Source of the DNA: an uncultured Gammaproteobacteria bacterium
GTDB taxonomy: Bacteria > Pseudomonadota > Gammaproteobacteria > DRLM01
Length of the DNA: 53,782 bases
Direction: 5' to 3'
Assembly: GCA_947259075.1 (NCBI GenBank)
Contig: CAMYKQ010000024.1
Location: 1-53,782 of the forward strand
Part shown: positions 5,469 to 52,690 of the stretch, piece by piece
Position numbering within the stretch: the stretch's first letter is position 1
Layout of the letters: every line of letters starts with the position of its first letter
The notes under the pieces: model-generated
Database searches by the model: none
What the model was told of the DNA's origin: nothing
The model's input: only the letters and a program-made list of their open reading frames with translations
Translations under genes and position numbers: made by a program

Positions 5469-7961
5469 CTAAGCCTGCTGCGAGGTTTTGCTGAGCTTGG
5501 GCCGCCAGCTGGATTCCCGCAGCCAGCGGGTAAGCACCGCCGCCGTTAGCGGCCGGCTGATGTAATAGCCTTGGGCCATATCGCAGCCCATCTCGATAAG
5601 GGTGTTAAGCACCTCTAGCGTTTCGACGCCTTCCGCGACCACGCGCCGGCCCATATTGTGGGCGAGGTCCACCGTGGAGCGCACGATCACCATGTCTTCA
5701 TTATTATCGAGCATGTCGATGACGAAGGATTTATCGATCTTGATTTCGTCCACCGGCAGTTGTTTCAAATAGACCAGCGAGGAGTAGCCGGTGCCGAAGT
5801 CGTCGATGGACAGACCGACGCCCATGATGTCGAGCTGGACGAGGGTGTCCATGGCGCGTAGCGGATTGGCCATGATGGCGCTCTCGGTGATCTCGAACTC
5901 CAGCTTATCCGCCGCCACGCCCCATTGCTGCATGGACGCGGCGATCTTGCCCGCGAGTTGCTCATCTTGCAGATGCCGCGCCGAGAGATTGATGGCCATG
6001 CGCAGTTCGATGTCGGCCTTTTGCCACAAATGAATTTGATGCAGGGCCTCGTCGAGCACGAAAAAAGTGAGCGGGCGGATCAGGCCGGTATGCTCGGCGA
6101 GAGGGATAAATTCATCGGGCAGCAACAAGCCGCGTTGCGGGTGGTCCCAGCGCACCACCGCCTCCACCGCGGTCACCATTCCGGTCTTGAGATCGATCTT
6201 GGGCTGATAGAACAATACCAGCTGTTTGAATTCGATGGCATGGCGCAATTCACCCGCCAGTGACAGGCGGCTGAGGCTGTGTTGATCTTCTTTCGCGTCA
6301 TAAAGGGCGAAGCCGGCGCTGGAACGTTTGGCGACGTACATGGCGACGTCGGCATGCCGCATCAGGGTGGCGCCGTCCTCGCCGTGATCGGGATAGAGCG
6401 CGATACCAACACTGGCGCCGATTTGGAAACTTTGCTCGTCGAGCATGATGGGTTGTTCGAGGGCGCTGACGAGTTTACGCGCGGCGCCGATTGCATCTTC
6501 TTCATTGAGTATGCCCGGTAGCAGCACGGCGAATTCATCGCCGCCGAGACGGGCGATGGTGTCGGATTCGCGTAACGCGCCGCGCATGCGCTCCGCTACT
6601 TGTTGCAGCACCAAGTCACCGTAATGATGGCCAAGGGTGTCGTTGATTTCCTTGAAGCGGTCGAGGTCGGTGATGAGCAGGGCCAAGGGCGCGCGTTTGC
6701 GTTGTGCCGTGAGGATGGCTTGGCGTAAACGGTCTTGCAACAGCAAACGATTGGGCAGCTCGGTCAAGCCGTCGTGCAAGGCTTGATGTTCCAATTCCCG
6801 GTTGAGCGAGGCGAGTTCCCGCGTGCGCTTGATGACCCGCCGTTCCAGATCTTCTTGCAGGGCTTTGAGTTCGGCCTCGGCCTGTTTGCGTTCGGTGATG
6901 TCGCGCATGATGCCGATATAGAGCATGCCTTCGGTGCGTGATAATTCGCTGATCGCCATTTCCATGGGGAAGGTGTGGCCGTCCTTGTGACGGCCCACGG
7001 TTTCGTGCGCGGTGATGCTGGCGATGTTTCCGCTCGGCGCGGCATGGGTAGCGGCCTGCTCGCCGACGTCACAGGCATAGGCCTGGTTCAGCAGAATGTT
7101 AAAATTCTCGCCCGCGATTTCCCCTTGGCCGTAACCGAATATTTTTTGCGCCGCGTGGTTCATGGACTCGACATTGCCGCGCGCGTCGATGGTGACGATG
7201 CCGTCCACCACATTGTCCATGATGGCGCGGATGCGCTGTTCGCGTACCGCTACGGCCTCGGCGTTGCTCACCAGCTTTTGACGCATGCGCTCGAGATCGT
7301 CGGCGAGATCGGCGATTTCATGGATGCTGGAGTGGACGTGCAAATGCTCCACCTCATCGTTATTGGCGATTCTTTGCGCCGCGTCGCGCAACTGGCGTAA
7401 GGGACGGGTGAGCTGGGGGACGACGACCGCCACCAGTAGCAAGGAAAATAAGATATAGCCGATGGCGAGGAGGACGCCGCGCTGATAGGCCTCATGGATC
7501 TGATCCTGCGTGGCGGTTTCGTCATAACCTACGCGTAAGATCGCGGCCGCATGCATCGCCTTGCTGGAAAATGGCACGGCGATGAAATAGGTGTTGTTGT
7601 CGTGTTCGCCGAAGTTGAAGTCTTCCTCGAATTTCGCCGGACTATTTATGCGGACGGCGGAGGAGACTTCCCCGCCGTCCTCGAATATCACTTCCGCGAA
7701 GTTGGCGCGCCCGGAAAATATGGCTTCATCGAGATGGATGCGAATCTGATCGGCGCTTTCTTGTTCTTCCATGCGTTCGGCCAGTTGCAGGGCATCGTGG
7801 CGGACGTAGTTGATGAATTGTTCTTTATAGCCCTCGGCGACGATGAACAGCACGCTGCTGAATAAAAAGGGGATCAATACCAAATGAATGATGACGCCGC
7901 CGAGAATGATGCGGCCGGCGAAACTCTGTACTAATGATTTTAGTCGGTGCTGCCGCGCCAT
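5469..7961 (-). CDS. Membrane sensor with HAMP, PAS, GGDEF and EAL domains (c-di-GMP turnover)
   Basis: The 830-residue transducer has a transmembrane segment at about 17-40, a periplasmic region to about 160, a second transmembrane segment at about 163-185, HAMP to about 235, PAS at about 243-360, GGDEF at about 395-555 and EAL at about 570-815. The cyclase motif GGDEF is intact and preceded by an inhibitory RxxD site (RESD, five residues before). The EAL motif reads EAVVR instead of EALxR, but [17 protein letters not shown] and VVAEGVET are kept, so phosphodiesterase activity is plausible. Its start overlaps the stop of the PBP-like gene by 22 bp; it is third in a porin/PBP-like/transducer operon. 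The ligand is unknown. Confidence 0.93.
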   Translation of the reverse strand: MARQHRLKSLVQSFAGRIILGGVIIHLVLIPFLFSSVLFIVAEGYKEQFINYVRHDALQLAERMEEQESADQIRIHLDEAIFSGRANFAEVIFEDGGEVSSAVRINSPAKFEEDFNFGEHDNNTYFIAVPFSSKAMHAAAILRVGYDETATQDQIHEAYQRGVLLAIGYILFSLLLVAVVVPQLTRPLRQLRDAAQRIANNDEVEHLHVHSSIHEIADLADDLERMRQKLVSNAEAVAVREQRIRAIMDNVVDGIVTIDARGNVESMNHAAQKIFGYGQGEIAGENFNILLNQAYACDVGEQAATHAAPSGNIASITAHETVGRHKDGHTFPMEMAISELSRTEGMLYIGIMRDITERKQAEAELKALQEDLERRVIKRTRELASLNRELEHQALHDGLTELPNRLLLQDRLRQAILTAQRKRAPLALLITDLDRFKEINDTLGHHYGDLVLQQVAERMRGALRESDTIARLGGDEFAVLLPGILNEEDAIGAARKLVSALEQPIMLDEQSFQIGASVGIALYPDHGEDGATLMRHADVAMYVAKRSSAGFALYDAKEDQHSLSRLSLAGELRHAIEFKQLVLFYQPKIDLKTGMVTAVEAVVRWDHPQRGLLLPDEFIPLAEHTGLIRPLTFFVLDEALHQIHLWQKADIELRMAINLSARHLQDEQLAGKIAASMQQWGVAADKLEFEITESAIMANPLRAMDTLVQLDIMGVGLSIDDFGTGYSSLVYLKQLPVDEIKIDKSFVIDMLDNNEDMVIVRSTVDLAHNMGRRVVAEGVETLEVLNTLIEMGCDMAQGYYISRPLTAAVLTRWLRESSWRPKLSKTSQQA

Positions 7962-8404
7962 AACTCACCTATTACCACCACGTTGGGATAGGCTCCCGCG
8001 GTGGAATCCCACATGAAGCTTACCATCCCGGGCCGGTTATGGAGGTTCTCGGCCAAGACTTGGGGTTCAAGGAAGATTTGCGGCAGCTGGCCGCCCAGCT
8101 GCACGACGTTGCTCAATAAGTGCAGCTCGTAGACATTGGCGGACATGAATACAACTTTTTGCAGAAAAACCTGATAGAGCAGGGTGTCGCCTTGGTTGAT
8201 GGCCGCCACCAGTTGTCTGCCGTCTTTGTTGACCGGGAAGCCGAGAAAGAGGCGGCGGATTTCGCTGGTCGAGAGACGGATGATACCGCTATTTTTGTCG
8301 GTGACCAGCACCAGCCGGCGTTCCGTGTCGGCGGATACCGTGCTGGCGTGCGCCAGCACGAAGAGCAAACAAGCCAGCAGGAGGCGCGGCCAGCAACGCG
8401 TCAT
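7940..8404 (-). CDS. Short PBP-like (PstS-related) periplasmic protein
   Basis: The 154-residue protein has a cleavable signal peptide (hydrophobic core LLLACLLFVLAHA, cleavage near VSA). The mature ~125 residues carry the pattern of PstS-like substrate-binding proteins: VTDKNSGI, then STSEIRRLFLG, a DGR turn, FLQKVV, and a late GMVSFMW strand. That is about one lobe of a full binding protein. No ABC permease or ATPase is adjacent. The ATG overlaps the stop of the upstream barrel gene (ATGA), implying coupled translation; a GTG/ATG further upstream would lengthen the n-region without reason. I infer a ligand-capturing partner for the downstream sensor; the ligand, perhaps an oxyanion, is not shown. 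Confidence 0.78.
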   Translation of the reverse strand: MTRCWPRLLLACLLFVLAHASTVSADTERRLVLVTDKNSGIIRLSTSEIRRLFLGFPVNKDGRQLVAAINQGDTLLYQVFLQKVVFMSANVYELHLLSNVVQLGGQLPQIFLEPQVLAENLHNRPGMVSFMWDSTAGAYPNVVVIGELWRGSTD

Positions 8405-9543
8405 GGCAGGGCGGCGCTCCACTGCACGGTGGCTTGGGCGTAGTCTTGCCCGAACTGGTTTTGCTTGGCCAGTTCAAACTTGAGCGCTTGGCCGCGGGCG
8501 ATTTGGTGGCGCACGCCGATTAATGTACGGTGGCGGATATACTCTGGAATTTCCGCGAGATAGAGATTGGCGGCGGCATGCTGGGTCACTTCGGCGCGTC
8601 CATAGAGCAGCCACCTGGCGTTGAGCGTGTATTCGGGTTGCAGATAGCCATAAAGAAACGATTGGTTGACCGTGTTGCCCGATGAGGTGTCGACACCGGT
8701 GCCGATGCGCATGACCGAGCCGCGCAGATACCAGGCGCCCATGCTGTAATTGCTATAGGCCCCGAGGATATTGAGTTTAACTTCATCGATGCCCGCCGCC
8801 GAGGAGGGGACGACGGTGTAGCCTAAATAAATACCGCTGTCGTCGAACGGCTTGTCCATGGGCTGGCGCGAGACCGAGACGGCGGCGAAAAGGTCGTATT
8901 CGCCTTTGCCCGGCTTGAGTATGTCGAGCGACTCCAAATGTCCTGGCGACAATGCAGGACCCACGCCGAAATCGAAGGTGAAATGATCGATGTGGTCGGC
9001 GCCATTGCGGCTGGTCTGCAGGCTCAGGCCCGTGGAATGCGATGGGAGGGCGCCGCCGTCGTCCTCGAATTCGATGATGCCGGGGCGATAAATGGTGGTT
9101 TGCAGGTAGGCGCCGTGGTGATGTTTGCGGTTCCATTGATCGAGGCCGGTGTGAAAGCGGCCAAGCCACAACCGGGTGTTGTCCGTGGCGGCCCAGCCGA
9201 CGGCCAGACGTTCCATTTCCCGCTCTTCATTGTCGAGGTAGAACTCCGCGAGCAAACGGGCTTTGCCATATTCCGCCGAATAGAAAAAATTGACGGCGGC
9301 CTCGGAGCCATGTTGCTCGAGCGAGGGCAGGTCGCGGTCATTGTAGTGGACGGTGACGAGCGGAAAGGGGATGAATTCCCCTTTGTACTCGGCATGCAGT
9401 GCGGGGGTGAATGAAAACAGCATCGTGCCCGCCAATAAGCTGCTCAGGCGGCCAAAGCGCCGTAGGGCAGGGAGGCCGCTCGTTCGTGCCGGCCGCGTGT
9501 TGTTGCAGGGCCGTTGTTGTGCCGCTTGCAGGGGGTTCTTCAT
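8401..9543 (-). CDS. Outer-membrane beta-barrel (porin-like) protein
   Basis: The 380-residue protein has a long basic n-region, then a signal core (LLAGTMLFSFTPALHA) cleaved near residue 51. The mature chain is rich in alternating aromatic and polar residues typical of transmembrane beta strands: ARLLAEFYLD, TRLWLGRFHTG, LKFELAKQNQFG. A residue pattern DQWNRKHHHGAYLQT is shared with uncharacterised porin-like proteins. The chain ends in ALP rather than the usual terminal aromatic. First gene of the three-gene minus-strand operon. No strong ribosome site precedes the ATG, so the true start may be slightly downstream. Confidence 0.72.
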   Translation of the reverse strand: MKNPLQAAQQRPCNNTRPARTSGLPALRRFGRLSSLLAGTMLFSFTPALHAEYKGEFIPFPLVTVHYNDRDLPSLEQHGSEAAVNFFYSAEYGKARLLAEFYLDNEEREMERLAVGWAATDNTRLWLGRFHTGLDQWNRKHHHGAYLQTTIYRPGIIEFEDDGGALPSHSTGLSLQTSRNGADHIDHFTFDFGVGPALSPGHLESLDILKPGKGEYDLFAAVSVSRQPMDKPFDDSGIYLGYTVVPSSAAGIDEVKLNILGAYSNYSMGAWYLRGSVMRIGTGVDTSSGNTVNQSFLYGYLQPEYTLNARWLLYGRAEVTQHAAANLYLAEIPEYIRHRTLIGVRHQIARGQALKFELAKQNQFGQDYAQATVQWSAALP

Positions 9544-44145: not shown

Positions 44146-45282
44146 ATGCGGATGTTGACCGTCAACGTCGGTTCCTCGTCGCTCAAACTCGATGTGCGCG
44201 AAAGGGGCGTGGCCGCGCCGCTGCTTAAATTGGAGGCGCGCGGCATTGGAGGCGCACGCGGGACATTAGTTGAAAACAGCGCGCAACTGAGCGAGACGCG
44301 ATTCGACGATCACGCCGCCGCCTTTGCCGCGCTGGCGGCGCGTTTGACCGATACCGGCAAGCTGGCGCGCATCGGCCATCGTATCGTTCACGGCGGCCCG
44401 CGTTATCGCGGGCCAGTTTGGTTTAGCGATGCCGTGCTCGCTGATTTACAGCAGTTACAGCCGCTGAGTCCTCTGCACCTGCCGCCCGCGCTCGCGGTTG
44501 TGCAGGCCTGCCGCGCGCGATTTCCCGCCGTGGCGCAAGCGGCGGTGTTCGATACCGCCTTTCACGCGAGTTTGCCGCCGCGCGCTTATACTTACGCCGT
44601 GCCCGCCGCGTGGCGTGATGCCGGTGTGCGGCGCTACGGATTTCACGGCATCGCCTGCGCCGACGTAGTGGCGCAATTGGGCGCGGCGTTGCGTCCGCGC
44701 GCGGTGATCCTGCATCTCGGCGCCGGATGTTCCGCCACCGCGCTGCGCGCGGGCGTGAGCATTGACACCAGCATGGGCTTCACGCCGCTGGAAGGCTTGA
44801 TGATGGCCAGCCGTGGCGGCGATCTCGATTCCGGCGCGCTGTTGTACGTGCAGCGCACGCTGGGTTTGCCGTTGGATGAAATGGAGCGCGCGCTCAACGA
44901 AGCCAGCGGTTTGTTGGGCGTCTCGGACTACTCAGCGGACATGCGCGCGCTGTTGGCGCGGCAGGACGATGCGCGCGCGGCGCTGGCGGTAGACTTGTTT
45001 TGTTATCGCGCCGCCAAGGCCGTGGGCGCGTTCACCGTCGTGCTGGGCGGACTCGATCAAGTCATCTTCAGCGGCGGCATTGGTGAGAATGCGGCGGCGA
45101 TCCGCGCGCGCATCGCCGCGCAGCTCGTCTGTTTTGGTGTGCATCTGGCCAACGCCGGTCATGCTGACGATGAGATGATTCTGTCCTCCGCGCACAGCGC
45201 GGTGGAGGTGCGCATCGTCCATGTCGATGAAGGCCGGGCCATCGCCGCGGAGCTGGCGGCGCTGCCTCTGCCCAGCATTTGA
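44146..45282 (+). CDS. ackA: Acetate kinase
   Basis: Interconverts acetyl phosphate + ADP and acetate + ATP. 378 residues, slightly short. Motifs kept: NVGSSSLK, GHRIVHGG (substrate arginine), AVFDTAFH, RRYGFHG, DTSMGFTPLEGLMM, SRGGDLD, and SGGIGENAAAIR with the C-terminal VDEGRAIA. The nucleotide loop HLGAGCS differs slightly from HLGNGxS. It looks functional although the phosphoketolase-like gene in front has decayed; acetyl phosphate would then come from another source. ATG 44152 is an alternative start. A relic of a second copy lies at 51112-51505. Confidence 0.9.
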   Translation: MRMLTVNVGSSSLKLDVRERGVAAPLLKLEARGIGGARGTLVENSAQLSETRFDDHAAAFAALAARLTDTGKLARIGHRIVHGGPRYRGPVWFSDAVLADLQQLQPLSPLHLPPALAVVQACRARFPAVAQAAVFDTAFHASLPPRAYTYAVPAAWRDAGVRRYGFHGIACADVVAQLGAALRPRAVILHLGAGCSATALRAGVSIDTSMGFTPLEGLMMASRGGDLDSGALLYVQRTLGLPLDEMERALNEASGLLGVSDYSADMRALLARQDDARAALAVDLFCYRAAKAVGAFTVVLGGLDQVIFSGGIGENAAAIRARIAAQLVCFGVHLANAGHADDEMILSSAHSAVEVRIVHVDEGRAIAAELAALPLPSI

Positions 45283-46546: not shown

Positions 46547-47608
46547 TTATTCTGGCAGCGTGGGGGGTGTCAACGTTACCGGGGAAGTGAGGGTGTGCAA
46601 GAACGCCAGCAGACCTTGTTTTTCTTCCGCGCTCAGGTTTAAGGGGCGGACGTCGAGCGACAAGCCGTAGCTCTTGTGGTCGCGGCCACCGTTGTTGTAA
46701 AAATCCACGACATCTTCGAGCGTGGTTTCCGAGCCGTTGTGCATGTACGGTGGCGTCAAGGCGACGTTGCGCAGACTCGGCGTCTTGAATGCCTTTTGGG
46801 TATGAAAGAAGGGATAGGGCGTGGTTTGGAATTCACCGGTTCTATCTAATTGGGACCGCCCCGGATCCTCGCCAGCCACGCCGGTGTTATGAAATTTGTC
46901 ATCGGTAAAATTGGGCCCGGCATGGCAACGCGAACATTTTCCCTTGCTGAAAAAGACCTGCATGCCCAGCCGGGCGCTGGGGTCTAGCAGCGTGCTTTCG
47001 CCCCCGATATAGCGATCGAACTGTGAATTATGGGAAACCAGCGTCCTTTCGAAGGCGGCTATGGCCTTGGCGGCGTTCCCCATGCTGATGCCATCGGGGT
47101 AGAGTTTGGCGAATTGCCGGCGATAAAAGTCGACAGCGCTCAAGCGTTGCCGCAGCTCATCCGGGCTGATATTGAATTCGTCGGCGGAGTGCATTACTTC
47201 CACGGCCTGGGCTTCCAGGCTGGTGACACGCCCGTCCCAGAAAAATGTGCGGTTCCATGCCAAATTATATAAATGTGGGGTATGGCGTTTGAGGGTTTTG
47301 TTGTTCAAGCCTCTGGCGAGAGTGAGGCCATCGGTAAAGCCGAGCTCAGGTTTGTGGCAGCTTGCACAGGACATGCTCTTGTCAACGGAAAGACGTGTGT
47401 CGAAAAATAGCAGTTTGCCAAGCTGGACCTCCTCAGCAGAGTGCCGCGACTGCCCAGGATAATTTGCGTCGGGCAAAGCGGCACGTTTGGCGGCGCTTGG
47501 TGCGCTGTCCGTGGCCGCGCAGCCGCTTAGGATAGCAATCAGTATGTAAACCTTGCCGAGCTTAGCCAATTTGGTTAAGGATGCGCGTTTAACGGTCTGC
47601 ATGGGCAT
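46547..47608 (-). CDS. Dihaem cytochrome c peroxidase / MauG-family lipoprotein
   Basis: The 353-residue lipoprotein (lipobox ILSGC) has two haem sites: CASCH at about residue 82 and CSRCH at about 223. Other CcpA/MauG marks are LGKLLFFDTRLS, HTPHLYNLAWNRTFFWDGR, and KTPSLRNVALTPPYMHNG near the C-terminus. It reduces periplasmic peroxide or oxidises a protein partner. It starts 3 bp after the chemoreceptor gene's stop on the same strand, so it is the fourth gene of that operon. Confidence 0.92.
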   Translation of the reverse strand: MPMQTVKRASLTKLAKLGKVYILIAILSGCAATDSAPSAAKRAALPDANYPGQSRHSAEEVQLGKLLFFDTRLSVDKSMSCASCHKPELGFTDGLTLARGLNNKTLKRHTPHLYNLAWNRTFFWDGRVTSLEAQAVEVMHSADEFNISPDELRQRLSAVDFYRRQFAKLYPDGISMGNAAKAIAAFERTLVSHNSQFDRYIGGESTLLDPSARLGMQVFFSKGKCSRCHAGPNFTDDKFHNTGVAGEDPGRSQLDRTGEFQTTPYPFFHTQKAFKTPSLRNVALTPPYMHNGSETTLEDVVDFYNNGGRDHKSYGLSLDVRPLNLSAEEKQGLLAFLHTLTSPVTLTPPTLPE

Positions 47609-47611
47609 GGT

Positions 47612-49192
47612 CTAACATTTGAACGTGGAGATTGATTTGCGCAACACTTCGGCCATGGCGGCGAGGCGTTCGGAGATGCTGCGGGCATCCTCGGCCGCCT
47701 TCTTGGTATTGCGCGCTGCTTCAATCACCTCGCTAACATTGGCATTTATCACGCCGGTAATGTTCTCAGCCTCTTCGAGACGTTTATAAATCTCTTCGGT
47801 GGAGGTGGTCTGCTCCTCGACGGCGCTGGCGATAGCGGTTTGATGACTGCTGATATTCTGAATGGTGTGGGTCGCGTCGCCGATGGCGGCGATAAAGGCC
47901 TTGCTCGCGTCTTGAATCAGTTTGACACGGGCGCCGATATCTTGTGTCGCGCTCGCGGTTTCCGCCGACAGCGATTTGACTTCATTGGCGACGATGGCAA
48001 AGCCTCTGCCGGCCTCACCCGCGCGCGCCGCCTCGATGGCGGCGTTCAATGCCAATAAATTAGTTTTAGAGGCGATGTCGGAAATTATCTTGGTGACATT
48101 ATCGATCTCTGCATTGCTGGTATCGAGTTCGATGATTTTCTCATTGATATGCGCCATTTTTTCAACCGCCATATTGACGGTGTCGACGACGCTGTGCGTC
48201 TCTTTGGAAACGGAATGGATGTTGTCCTTCAGCTGGCCGACGGCAGTGACGATGTACAAGACATGATCAGATATCGTATTGCAGGCATCGGATACCCGCA
48301 CGGTTCTGGAGTCGGTAAGCGCGAAATTATCGCTTATATGCCTGCTGATATCGAGCATCTCATGGGACGAAGTGCTTAAATCTGTGGTGTTTCTGTCAAT
48401 GATGCGCACCATGTCGCGGATGCTCTGTATCGCGCGATTGAGTGATCTGGCGATCTGCGTCACCTCGTCATTGCCTTTTTCTATCAGCGCCTGGGTCAAG
48501 TCGCCATGAGCCATGGCATCCATCACCGGCAGGGTGTCATCCAGGGGCAGTATGCTGTGTTTGATGCGCCTGCTGATTAAGGTCGATACCGTGATTACCA
48601 TGATGCTCGCCAGAATTACCATGACGATGGGTAGCAGCATGTTTTTCTTGATACCGATGAGGGCGATTGTGAGTGATTTGCTGAGCACTAACTCGACTTG
48701 CTTTATTCCCGTGAGCAATTCCGTGTAGAGCTCTTCGGCGATGATCATTTCGATCTGCGCCATCTCGGCCTGACCCTGGGCAAGCTGATTGAAGACAGCT
48801 TGTAAGGGTTTCTTAGTCTGCATATACAACTCATTGAGTCGCGTAATGTCCTCGGTCATCGCGCCAGCAACGTCGATGCCCTGTAGGCTGGCCAGGCTGG
48901 ATTTAAGATTTTCAGACCGTACTTCATATTCGGTCGCGGCGTTCAGGTCGCTGTCCGCGACCGCGCGATGGGTGAATTGGATGAGATCATTAGCCTTCTC
49001 GGCGGCGAGCGCGGTTTCCATGTAGCGTTGAGTCTGTTCGATCAGGGTGATGACCTGATGGCGGGTGATCGTCATGACGGTCACCACCACCAGAACCAGA
49101 ATACATATGAGCGTAGTGACAACCCACGATGAGGTGTTGACCTTCTCCTTGATGGTGAAGTCATTAAATTTCAGTAAGGCGCGCATCTTCAT
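47612..49192 (-). CDS. Methyl-accepting chemotaxis protein
   Basis: The 526-residue chemoreceptor has a transmembrane helix at about 23-43, a helical periplasmic ligand domain at about 45-180 (four-helix-bundle type), a second transmembrane helix at about 183-205, HAMP to about 260, and a cytoplasmic signalling hairpin with [20 protein letters not shown] and [14 protein letters not shown]. No CheR-docking pentapeptide at the C-terminus (ends STFKC). It signals to CheA/CheW. It follows the PBP-like gene by 26 bp in an operon that mirrors the GGDEF/EAL operon at 5469-9543. Confidence 0.94.
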
Positions 49193-49218
49193 CGTGGGCC
49201 ATCCGGGCAGCGGTCAAC

Positions 49219-49674
49219 TCAGAATTCGATTTCAAGCACGGTTTTGACCGTGTCCGTCCCATCAATCGAGGTCTTGTTGACGACGCCAATGCCACCCTTG
49301 AAGGCACCGACAAATTTCATCACGGCGCTGTCGCTGTCCACCTGCATGGGCGGCGGTTCCGCGGTCGCGTATTGTTTTTCGACCCAATACCTGACCAGGT
49401 CCTGGTCACTGAGCTTCAGTACTTGCTTTAAAAACGCGTCGCGTTCCACGCCGTATTTCTGATCGATCTGCCTCACCTTTTCGCCGTCAGGCCAGATTTT
49501 GCGTGACTTCAAAAAGTAACTCTTGACCTCAGTTCCACTCATATTGGCGACGGGGTTGTTTTTATTGACGATGACCACCGCCGTGCCGGCGCTTGCTTCA
49601 AATGCGCCCAAGGACAGTAGTATGAATATCATTCCCCAAAGGGAGTTCGAGTTTATGCGGTGCGTCCTGTTCAT
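49219..49674 (-). CDS. Short PBP-like (PstS-related) periplasmic protein
   Basis: The 151-residue protein has a signal peptide (MIFILLSLGAFEASA). The mature domain shows the pattern VIVNKNNPVANMSGTEVKSYFL, a WPDGEKV turn, RDAFLKQVLKLSDQDLVRYWVEK, and VGAFKGGIGVV. This is about one lobe of a PstS-like protein. It shares the layout and partial sequence pattern (VTDKN or VNKNN, SxxE(I/V), FLG or FLK, DG) with the 7940-8404 protein. No ABC transporter genes adjoin it. I infer a soluble receptor for the chemoreceptor encoded next. Confidence 0.82.
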   Translation of the reverse strand: MNRTHRINSNSLWGMIFILLSLGAFEASAGTAVVIVNKNNPVANMSGTEVKSYFLKSRKIWPDGEKVRQIDQKYGVERDAFLKQVLKLSDQDLVRYWVEKQYATAEPPPMQVDSDSAVMKFVGAFKGGIGVVNKTSIDGTDTVKTVLEIEF

Positions 49675-49688
49675 TTGTGTTCTCCCTA

Positions 49689-50882
49689 TCAGAAGCCGAA
49701 GGCGCTTTGAAACAGGATGCCGTTCGATGGCCTCACGCCATCAAAATGATGGATAAACTCTACCTTCAGACGGTTATGTACGGTGCGGTCGTAGGCAATG
49801 CCCACCATGGCGGCATCGAACTCGGGTACGAAGACGCGGGCGATATCGCCGCCGTCTTCGCGAAGGCCGTAATAGGGGCCGCTGTCCTTGGGAAGATTAG
49901 TGCGGTCATAGCGAATATAGGGATGTACGCGATTGCCCTGTAAATGCAGTGCGACTTCCGCGATGAAGCCGTTGAAGGAATAGCTCTTCTCCGGCAGGCC
50001 GCCCAATTCGTCTTTTTGTTTGGCATAGACATATTCCGCCAGCACGCTGACCTGGCCTATGTTCCACACGAGGTAGGGATTGAAGCCGACTTCACTGAGC
50101 TCCATGGGCGTCGCCGTAGCGGTACTGCTACTGTCGCCGATATTGTCGAGTTGATAACTGGATATCCGGTCCATCCATCCGCTCAAGCCGATACGGCTGT
50201 CCTTATTACCCGGTATGATCCACTCGAACAGCCAGGTGAATTCCTTGGTCTTGGAAGGATCACGTGCGTAGACCGCCTGATCTGGAGCCACGGCGCGGCC
50301 GTTGCCCAGCGAAAAGGCATAATTGATGGAATGTCCGTTATCCAGGAAGCGGCTGCCATACAGACTTAGGCCGATGGTGTGGGTGGGTACCAGATTTAAC
50401 TCCTCTTCGAAGAGGCCGGGGATCTGCACCGAATTCATCAACCACGCGCGTGAATAGAGGAAGCGGTTGAAATAACCTATCGGCGTGAAATACAAGCCGC
50501 CCTGTATATTGAGTTCGGGCGTGAAGGTATAGTCCACGAACATGCGCTCTACATCCAACTCGAGCTCATTGCTCGCGCTCCGTGCCGCCTGCAGATTGAT
50601 TTCGCTCAGGAATCGCATATTGTCAGAGAAGTCGGCGATCACCACGAAATCGGCGCCGGTAATGGAGAATCCGTCGTTAATATTGACTGGGTTTGCACCA
50701 TAACCGTCCGATTCGAAGAGGGCCTGGGCTGCTTCATCGGGTGCTTTGCCATAGGTGTAACCGTAGATTACATCGCCGAAGCCGGAAAAACGCAGATCAA
50801 CCGCCTCGGCATTGACGCTGAGTAACAGGGCGGGAAGTGTTATCAACCATGACCTGATTGAGTTTGCTGCTGGTTTAGGCAT
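49689..50882 (-). CDS. Outer-membrane porin-like protein
   Basis: The 397-residue protein has a signal peptide (WLITLPALLLSVNAEA). The mature chain begins VDLRFSGFGDVIYGYTYG and has strand-like alternation throughout (MRFLSEINLQAARS, FEWIIPGNKDSRIGLSGWMD, RVHPYIRYDRTNLP). It ends in the terminal phenylalanine typical of outer-membrane barrels (FQSAFGF). A GGAG lies eight bases before the ATG. First gene of a four-gene operon (barrel, PBP-like, chemoreceptor, dihaem peroxidase). AT-richer than the surrounding chromosome. Confidence 0.85.
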   Translation of the reverse strand: MPKPAANSIRSWLITLPALLLSVNAEAVDLRFSGFGDVIYGYTYGKAPDEAAQALFESDGYGANPVNINDGFSITGADFVVIADFSDNMRFLSEINLQAARSASNELELDVERMFVDYTFTPELNIQGGLYFTPIGYFNRFLYSRAWLMNSVQIPGLFEEELNLVPTHTIGLSLYGSRFLDNGHSINYAFSLGNGRAVAPDQAVYARDPSKTKEFTWLFEWIIPGNKDSRIGLSGWMDRISSYQLDNIGDSSSTATATPMELSEVGFNPYLVWNIGQVSVLAEYVYAKQKDELGGLPEKSYSFNGFIAEVALHLQGNRVHPYIRYDRTNLPKDSGPYYGLREDGGDIARVFVPEFDAAMVGIAYDRTVHNRLKVEFIHHFDGVRPSNGILFQSAFGF

Positions 50883-51111: not shown

Positions 51112-51505
51112 GGCCCGCCAGCCTCGCGATTCCGCGCCGCCACTTGGATAGACGAGGCCGTGCTCGCTGGCCTTGAGCGCTAGATATCGCTGAGCCCTTT
51201 GCATCTGCCGTCGGCCTTAACGGTGTTTGGTTGCCGTGCCGCCAAGGCCGTGGCCTCGCTGGCGGTGGCGCTGGGTGGGATGGGGCAAATTCTTTTCAGC
51301 GGCGGCATCGGTGAACACGCGGCGCCGGTGCGCGCGCATTGCCGGGTATCTGGCTCACCTTGGCGTGCGTTTGGACGCGGCCGCCAATCAGACCGGCGCC
51401 GCCGGCATCTCCGCGCCGGATAGCGCGGTGGCGTTGCGGGTGGTCCGGGTGGACGAGGGGCGCGCGCTGGCGGCGGAGGCGGCGGCGCTGCCCCGCGCGG
51501 ATTGA
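51112..51505 (+). pseudogene. Relic of a second acetate kinase gene
   Basis: Pieces align with ackA of this window. TWIDEAVLAGLE then a TAG stop (51181-51183), SLSPLHLPSALTVF, then directly RAAKAVASLAVALGGMGQILFSGGIGEHAA, which skips about 165 residues. After a frameshift near 51335-51345 the tail RLDAAANQTGAAGISAPDSAVALRVVRVDEGRALAAEAAALP follows in another frame. A deletion, a stop and a frameshift make it dead. It lies 5.8 kb from the intact ackA in the same orientation. Confidence 0.85.
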
Positions 51506-51563: not shown

Positions 51564-51580
51564 ACTAAAAGGTGATGCCC

Positions 51581-51991
51581 ATGCGTCTTCAGCACATGCA
51601 TACTGATGCCTCGCGGGATATTCGCTCCAAGGAAGGACGTTTGGCCCTGGCCAAGATGGTGGTGCAGTTGTTCGATCACTGGGCGCTAACGCCCACGGAA
51701 CAGGCCGCCCTGCTGGGGTTGTCCACCGAGTCCCGCTCCACGCTGGCCCGTTACCGCAAGGGCCAGCCCTTGGCCGATCAGCGCGATCTCATGGATCGCG
51801 TCGGCCACCTCCTCGCCATGCACAAATCCCTGCGCATCATGTACCCCCATAACCGCGAGCTGGTGTACCGCTGGGTGACGGCGGCCAACGCGCGCTTCAG
51901 CGGGCGGCGGCCGCTGGATGTGATGATGGAGAAGGGCTTTCTCGGCCTGGTGATGGTGCGCCGTTACCTCGACTTCGAACGCGGGCGTTAG
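51581..51991 (+). CDS. Xre/MbcA/ParS-type antitoxin
   Basis: The 136-residue cytoplasmic protein has an N-terminal helix-turn-helix (LALAKMVVQLFDHWALTPTEQAALLGLSTESRSTLARYRKG) and a C-terminal toxin-binding domain (NRELVYRWVTAANARFSGRRPLDVMMEKGFLGLVMVRRYLD), the typical ParS/Xre antitoxin layout. ATG 51581 fits AAGG eight bases before; the earlier GTG 51572 and ATG 51575 are alternatives. The toxin ATG follows its stop directly. Confidence 0.86.
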   Translation: MRLQHMHTDASRDIRSKEGRLALAKMVVQLFDHWALTPTEQAALLGLSTESRSTLARYRKGQPLADQRDLMDRVGHLLAMHKSLRIMYPHNRELVYRWVTAANARFSGRRPLDVMMEKGFLGLVMVRRYLDFERGR

Positions 51992-52690
51992 ATGTTCGAG
52001 GGGCTATTCACGGACGTGGCCGACCTCGACCAGGATATTTACCGCAATATTTGCGGCGTGCGCCAGGGCCAGGACTTGTTTGATGATCTGAGTGACGAAC
52101 CCGAGGATCAGCACTTCGCCATGGCCGCGGAGATGCAAGACAAACCCGCCTCCGCCGCGCCGCTGATCACCCGGCCCTTCGAGTACGGCACGGTCATTAG
52201 TTTTCCCTTCGAGCCGGAAAATTGGCAAGTCAGCCGTTTCAGCGAAGGCGTGGATTTCAGCGTGTGGTACGGCGCCCTCGAATTCTTGACCACGGTGCAT
52301 GAAACCCTGCACCACTGGCTGCGTTTTCAGCGTGACGCCTTCGCGGATTACCCGCACGAGATCATCGCCGAGCGCCGCGTTTATCTGGTGCGTTGCCGGG
52401 GCCTGCTCGTTGACCTGCGCGCTAAATGCCGCGAATTTCCCGCCTTGCTCGACCCGGCCGATTATGATTTCAGTCACCGCGTCGGCGCCTATCTGCATCA
52501 GCAAAATCAAAACGGCCTATTGAGCTGCTCCGCGCGTTGCGAGGGATCCGTCGCGGCGGTTTTGCAAGCCGGCATCCTCGCCAATCCGCGCGATCATTGT
52601 TATCTGACCTATCGCTGGCGGCCCGGTGATGCCGACGTGAAAGTGGAACGGACGCCGGGGCGCGTGTGGCGGCGTGTGGCGGCGGAGTGA
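51992..52690 (+). CDS. RES-domain toxin (NAD+-degrading family)
   Basis: RES toxins break down NAD+, with antitoxin release under stress. 232 residues. Marks: RFSEGVDFSVWYGALEFLTTVHETLHHW, with the conserved Arg, Tyr and Glu of the fold, an upstream ICGVRQGQDLFDDLSD (R..S..D) and LLSCSARCEGSVAAV. Immediately follows the antitoxin, so the two are translationally coupled. Longer than the shortest RES toxins but within range. Confidence 0.8.
   Translation: MFEGLFTDVADLDQDIYRNICGVRQGQDLFDDLSDEPEDQHFAMAAEMQDKPASAAPLITRPFEYGTVISFPFEPENWQVSRFSEGVDFSVWYGALEFLTTVHETLHHWLRFQRDAFADYPHEIIAERRVYLVRCRGLLVDLRAKCREFPALLDPADYDFSHRVGAYLHQQNQNGLLSCSARCEGSVAAVLQAGILANPRDHCYLTYRWRPGDADVKVERTPGRVWRRVAAE

Follow-up and report, generated by a model that had tools for sequence, protein, structure and literature searches.

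Do a porin-like barrel, a one-lobe protein resembling periplasmic binding proteins (PBPs) and a membrane transducer, encoded side by side, make up a single sensory unit, and can such a unit be connected to different signalling outputs? The question is raised by a contig of an uncultured Gammaproteobacteria bacterium (here ‘the window’, the whole stretch of 53,782 nt that was analysed), in which two such gene sets, modules A and B, lie forty kilobases apart (Table 1). The preliminary description of this DNA, made from the letters and open reading frames, had taken them for two copies, with swapped outputs, of a modular sensing unit that plugs into either c-di-GMP or chemotaxis signalling. All three ORFs of module B were confirmed in place and strand, and barrel, lobe and transducer follow one another in the same order and orientation as in module A.

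Table 1. Features of modules A and B in the window, with domains of the module B transducer and the adjoining lipoprotein gene.
Feature	Position	Strand	Length and composition	Comment
Module B barrel	49689..50882	-	397 aa; porin-like outer-membrane protein, signal peptide	16-strand model, OprO/OprP-related family
Module B lobe	49219..49674	-	151 aa; periplasmic one-lobe protein	equivalent to PstS second lobe
Module B transducer	47612..49192	-	526 aa; methyl-accepting chemotaxis protein (MCP): TM, ectodomain, TM, HAMP, MCPsignal	
MCP periplasmic ectodomain	48641..49066	-	residues 43-184	helical sequence character, no Pfam family
MCP HAMP domain	48413..48526	-	residues 223-260	Pfam
MCP signalling domain	47684..48160	-	residues 345-503	MCPsignal
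CCP/MauG-family lipoprotein	46547..47608	-	di-haem	3 nt downstream of module B MCP
Module A barrel	8401..9543	-	380 aa	one family with module B barrel
Module A lobe	7940..8422	-	160 aa	diverged subfamily of module B lobe's family
Module A transducer	5469..7961	-	830 aa; ectodomain, HAMP, PAS, GGDEF, EAL	

Module B is transcribed in the order barrel, lobe, MCP and then CCP/MauG lipoprotein, with gaps of 14 nt between barrel and lobe and 26 nt between lobe and MCP. The earlier identification of its transducer as a chemotaxis receptor was borne out by Pfam (HAMP 4.6e-7, MCPsignal 1e-25), and the protein has the TM helices, HAMP domain and MCPsignal hairpin of a chemoreceptor. Three CheW-domain matches and further MCP-signal matches were found in its own genome, so the window MCP has machinery to work with. 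The CCP/MauG lipoprotein is probably encoded in one transcript with the MCP, and at locus L031 of a sister genus its gene likewise follows that of the MCP. Through this neighbour module B could receive a redox input, although the placement is seen only in these two genomes. Upstream of module B lies the remnant of a second acetate-kinase-like gene (51153-51492), with which the intact ackA-like gene (44146-45282) shares 68% DNA identity, and the window also holds, at 51572-52690, a RES-domain toxin paired with an Xre/MbcA/ParS-type antitoxin.

Pairwise BLASTP showed the barrels of modules A and B to be homologous (5e-10). It detected no similarity between the two lobes, nor, in direct comparison, between the two transducers, and kinship was therefore examined through profiles. 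None of the window lobes and barrels scores high enough for membership of a Pfam or NCBIfam family. Against a leave-one-out profile of about 110 other barrels, the window barrels scored 4e-19 and 2e-29. A first search of genome contigs with lobe B gave no match; an iterated search gathered a large lobe family, to which lobe A, itself left out of the profile, matched at 1e-5 (22 members) and at 1.6e-6 over residues 14-139 (118 members). In a shuffling control with the 22-member profile, the best of 200 shuffled sequences reached E 1.1, compared with 2e-6 for the real lobe A sequence. An orthologue of lobe A from the same genus (L206, 65% identical), encoded in a barrel-lobe-GGDEF-EAL order like that of module A, scored 1e-14 with the lobe profile. 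Profile comparison, named in the preliminary description as the means by which its reading could fail, thus placed lobes and barrels in shared rather than unrelated families. The reported likeness of the two PBP-like proteins holds as common family membership, although it does not extend to BLASTP similarity or to all motifs: the family signature YWxxLIFTGxGxPP is lost from lobe A, and lobe B has it in YW...PP and GIGVV versions. In a tree of concatenated barrels and lobes, modules A and B form separate long branches. The two modules are ancient, separate members of a front-end family and not recent duplicates with swapped outputs.

Both front-end proteins have relatives in phosphate uptake. 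The predicted model of lobe B (pLDDT 91) superposes on a PstS-type second lobe (Z 14.3, rmsd 1.9 Å, 108 residues of 4gd5), and the lobe is linked to PstS by Foldseek (7e-8) as well as by sequence profile (8e-13). The alignment is confined to residues 107-236 of 4gd5, the first lobe being absent; where a PstS-type protein has two lobes forming a ligand cleft, this protein of 151 aa has one. The columns compared in the lobe alignment were those of the E. coli PstS ligand residues, which we take to be the R...SGT of lobe 2: the phosphate-ligand Arg occurred at the equivalent column in 0/118 lobes, and the SGT motif was mostly replaced (G in 4/118 and T in 10/118 at the equivalent columns). The model of barrel B is built of 16 strands, the fifth and sixth joined by a long loop, and it matches porins, including OprP and OprO; together with the family's profile match to OprO/OprP (1e-15), this identifies the barrel as an OprO/OprP-like porin.

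Such relatives would fit an ordinary uptake set, in which porin and substrate-binding protein take up a nutrient, be it phosphate or some other anion, that the transducer senses by itself. NCBI annotation points the same way, since the lobe proteins are named ‘phosphate ABC transporter substrate-binding protein’; in Pseudoalteromonas, Pseudomonas and Caballeronia plasmids, such sets are annotated as porin or hypothetical protein, phosphate ABC transporter substrate-binding protein, and MCP or EAL protein. Set against the barrel and lobe matches, however, are the missing half of the binding cleft and the lost R...SGT site, and the genes accompanying the pair encode transducers rather than transporters: an ABC ATPase signature lay within two genes of the lobe in 2/118 loci, which is near background and no enrichment. 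An uptake set of this kind seems quite improbable, and the annotated phosphate-transport role of the front end is probably wrong.

Several loci depart from the simple pair. Five loci, L091-L095, encode the lobe as the tethered C-terminal portion of a longer protein that has a hydrophobic segment, and here too a barrel adjoins, an arrangement that favours the co-receptor model proposed below; in L091 (6240-8264), L092 (7563-9818), L093 (5231-6937) and L094 (6483-8174) it ends proteins of 560-750 aa. Tandem lobe genes occur without a barrel in L033 (6375-7395) and L098 (6400-7346) and with several barrels in L047, and two tandem lobes might pair into a clamshell. Several barrels of the same family that lack a lobe (L199-L203) lie beside Sel1-type repeat proteins, not beside full-length PBPs, and apparently represent a second, separate barrel partnership. 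Read directly from the sequences, the L091-L094 proteins have a J-domain-like N-terminal segment, a TM segment and a long linker, and the Sel1-type neighbours a conserved ARFxSTC(R/H)-like tail.

The company kept by the pair was surveyed across genomes. The lobe profile had matches in 136/369 Gammaproteobacteria genomes, and neighbourhoods were read for 118 lobes; these are largely the stronger lobe matches, some genomes contributed several, and histidine kinases (HKs) were detected by a home-made profile. A barrel adjoins the lobe in 108/118 loci. Signal transducers (MCP, GGDEF, EAL or HK) make up 67/200 (33.5%) of the genes directly flanking the pair, compared with about 2% of those at least three positions distant (Fisher p 1e-34, odds ratio 26 for the direct flank). 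By partner, the 108 pairs divide into MCP 28, GGDEF-EAL 21, GGDEF 6, HK 8 and none 45, and the proposal of a modular unit joined to c-di-GMP or chemotaxis signalling is accordingly upheld and widened to histidine kinases. On an Alteromonas plasmid (L152), a lobe gene and a barrel-sized neighbour lie near type IV CRISPR csf genes.

Could this adjacency be a by-product, with autonomous porin-lobe pairs beside which signalling genes gather without joint function? The 45/108 pairs that stand alone agree with such an account, as does the variation in gene order and strand among surveyed pairs; pairs lacking an adjoining transducer, and the 10/63 partner genes on the opposite strand, also count against the co-receptor model proposed below. 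Scanning of unlabelled neighbours for missed transducers returned mostly unrelated genes. A by-product, on the other hand, sits poorly with the odds ratio at the direct flank, with the many overlapping genes (overlaps or gaps of a few nt to neighbours are frequent for HK and GGDEF partners) and with an ectodomain, EC1, that is nearly confined to lobe loci yet crosses output types. Mere by-product is, on these grounds, highly unlikely. The window's own genome has a third lobe-barrel pair (L039, 7275-8847), with no transducer beside it.

Output was mapped on a tree built from the concatenated barrel and lobe of 63 pairs. Output class is clustered on this tree (13 changes, compared with a shuffled mean of 30), but it is far from fixed: the tree requires a minimum of 10 switches between c-di-GMP, MCP and HK outputs, and of 8 within the 59-row subset with a classified ectodomain, exact numbers being soft because this is a quick tree with long branches. 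The starred branches by themselves force several output changes. These comparisons support the conclusion that the same front end has been joined to MCP, GGDEF, GGDEF-EAL and HK proteins, its outputs having been exchanged repeatedly.

Partner ectodomains, too, cross output types. EC1 (~155 aa, helical), which reaches no Pfam cut-off and gave one weak CHASE3 match, is carried by MCPs, by two GGDEF proteins and by two HKs whose genes overlap those of their lobes, and EC1 of HK partners matches EC1 of MCP partners at E 5e-23. Genome-wide, 29 of the 30 best-scoring EC1 matches have a lobe within 5 kb, a result that is partly circular, most being in the training set; of ten strong matches outside the training set, seven adjoin a lobe, two of these being closely related to training members, while another is near a barrel alone and the remaining two are near neither. 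The GGDEF-EAL partners carry EC2 ectodomains of dCache_3 type (for example L130, 4544-5389), whose invariant CxxxC points to a disulfide or a cofactor; EC3 is dCache_1. In the comparison of transducer periplasmic domains suggested in the preliminary description, one ectodomain proved common to MCP, HK and GGDEF partners, but both window ectodomains match none of EC1, dCache_3, dCache_1 or the other surveyed types. Membership of the window MCP ectodomain in EC1 was ruled out (hhalign probability 1.5%), and that ectodomain is common to locus L031 only. Because several ectodomain types occur and those of the window belong to none of them, it is hard to point to one docking surface, which also weighs against the co-receptor model.

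The pair stays the same where its outputs differ, and a cleft-less lobe beside transducers would make a poor transport protein; for these reasons the lobe is read as a co-receptor. We consider it rather probable that barrel and lobe form a conserved sensory front end, in which the lobe acts as co-receptor on the neighbouring transducer. The two would operate with whichever inner-membrane transducer adjoins. The porin, in the outer membrane, would either admit a signal molecule to the periplasm or hold the lobe, serving as gate or anchor, and the lobe, a lone PstS-type second lobe with neither clamshell nor phosphate site, would be a periplasmic co-receptor that binds the transducer ectodomain and shifts the transducer's output. 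The output would be the chemotaxis array via the MCP in module B, and c-di-GMP via the GGDEF-EAL protein in module A. The analysis establishes that the genes are linked, to which families they belong, what folds are predicted, that outputs are exchanged and that one ectodomain serves different outputs; contact of lobe with ectodomain, the part played by the porin, the ligand and the effect's sign are elements that we infer. Precedents for such action by other periplasmic modulators are YfiR on YfiN (PMC3375315, PMC4655355) and DbfQ on DbfS (PMC12714742).

A closer parallel with the YfiBNR system can be drawn, in which the lobe would repress the transducer and the barrel would draw the lobe to the outer membrane under envelope stress. 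The three-part layout matches (outer-membrane protein, small periplasmic protein and HAMP transducer), the range of outputs equals that of YfiR-YfiN homologues (PMC3375315), and the YfiR fold likewise resembles a periplasmic ligand-binding domain (PMC4655355). The lobe is not, however, a DUF4154 protein by Pfam or by profile comparison, and the porin is no OmpA/Pal-type peptidoglycan binder, so that strict sequestration of this type appears unlikely. Assignment of the lobe to DUF4154 (YfiR family, PF13689) was rejected on finding no match among 21 lobes at E 0.1 and an hhalign probability of 6%; a search of the window's own genome for DUF4154 proteins found none. YfiR was not among the best 50 structural matches of the lobe model, though the two may still share a fold.

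Taken more broadly, the co-receptor reading would make these sets a previously undescribed class of envelope sensory unit, found in more than one in three of the Gammaproteobacteria genomes sampled, with porin and half-PstS as a general periplasmic adaptor to which chemotaxis, c-di-GMP and phosphorelay receptors couple interchangeably, several of them via a dedicated new EC1 ectodomain; this generalisation we regard as evenly balanced. For many chemoreceptors and c-di-GMP enzymes no input is known, and if the pair is the input that such proteins share, a single binding experiment could give access to dozens of orphan receptors. A signalling role is suggested, too, for proteins that carry the annotation of a phosphate ABC transporter binding protein. 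The pair would be a second family, after the one proposed for YfiR, in which a single periplasmic input serves several outputs.

No description of a porin/half-PstS/transducer set was found in the openly accessible papers that were searched. Its constituent families differ from their nearest relatives. The lobe shares with PstS (PBP_like_2) the second-lobe fold and a sequence profile match, but retains one of two lobes only, has lost the phosphate ligands and is accompanied by no ABC transporter; the barrel shares with the phosphate-selective porins OprO/OprP a 16-strand architecture and the profile match given above, but has ~14% identity to them and is paired with the lobe and transducers. 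DbfQ-DbfRS also comprises a small secreted protein, whose gene adjoins that of the receptor and is over-represented beside signalling genes, but has a PepSY fold, serves two-component systems only and includes no porin (PMC12714742). YfiBNR has in common with the sets described here an outer-membrane protein, a small periplasmic PBP-fold-like protein, a HAMP transducer and swapped outputs (PMC3375315, PMC4655355); its periplasmic protein is DUF4154 rather than half PstS, its outer-membrane partner an OmpA/Pal lipoprotein rather than a 16-strand porin, and the YfiN ectodomain PAS rather than EC1 or dCache. Malone et al. described YfiR-YfiN homologues with GGDEF-EAL, HK or MCP in place of GGDEF (PMC3375315), and modular outputs behind a periplasmic protein are therefore an existing idea. 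The front end differs from YfiBNR in its parts, but a swappable periplasmic input had already been proposed for YfiR-YfiN (PMC3375315).
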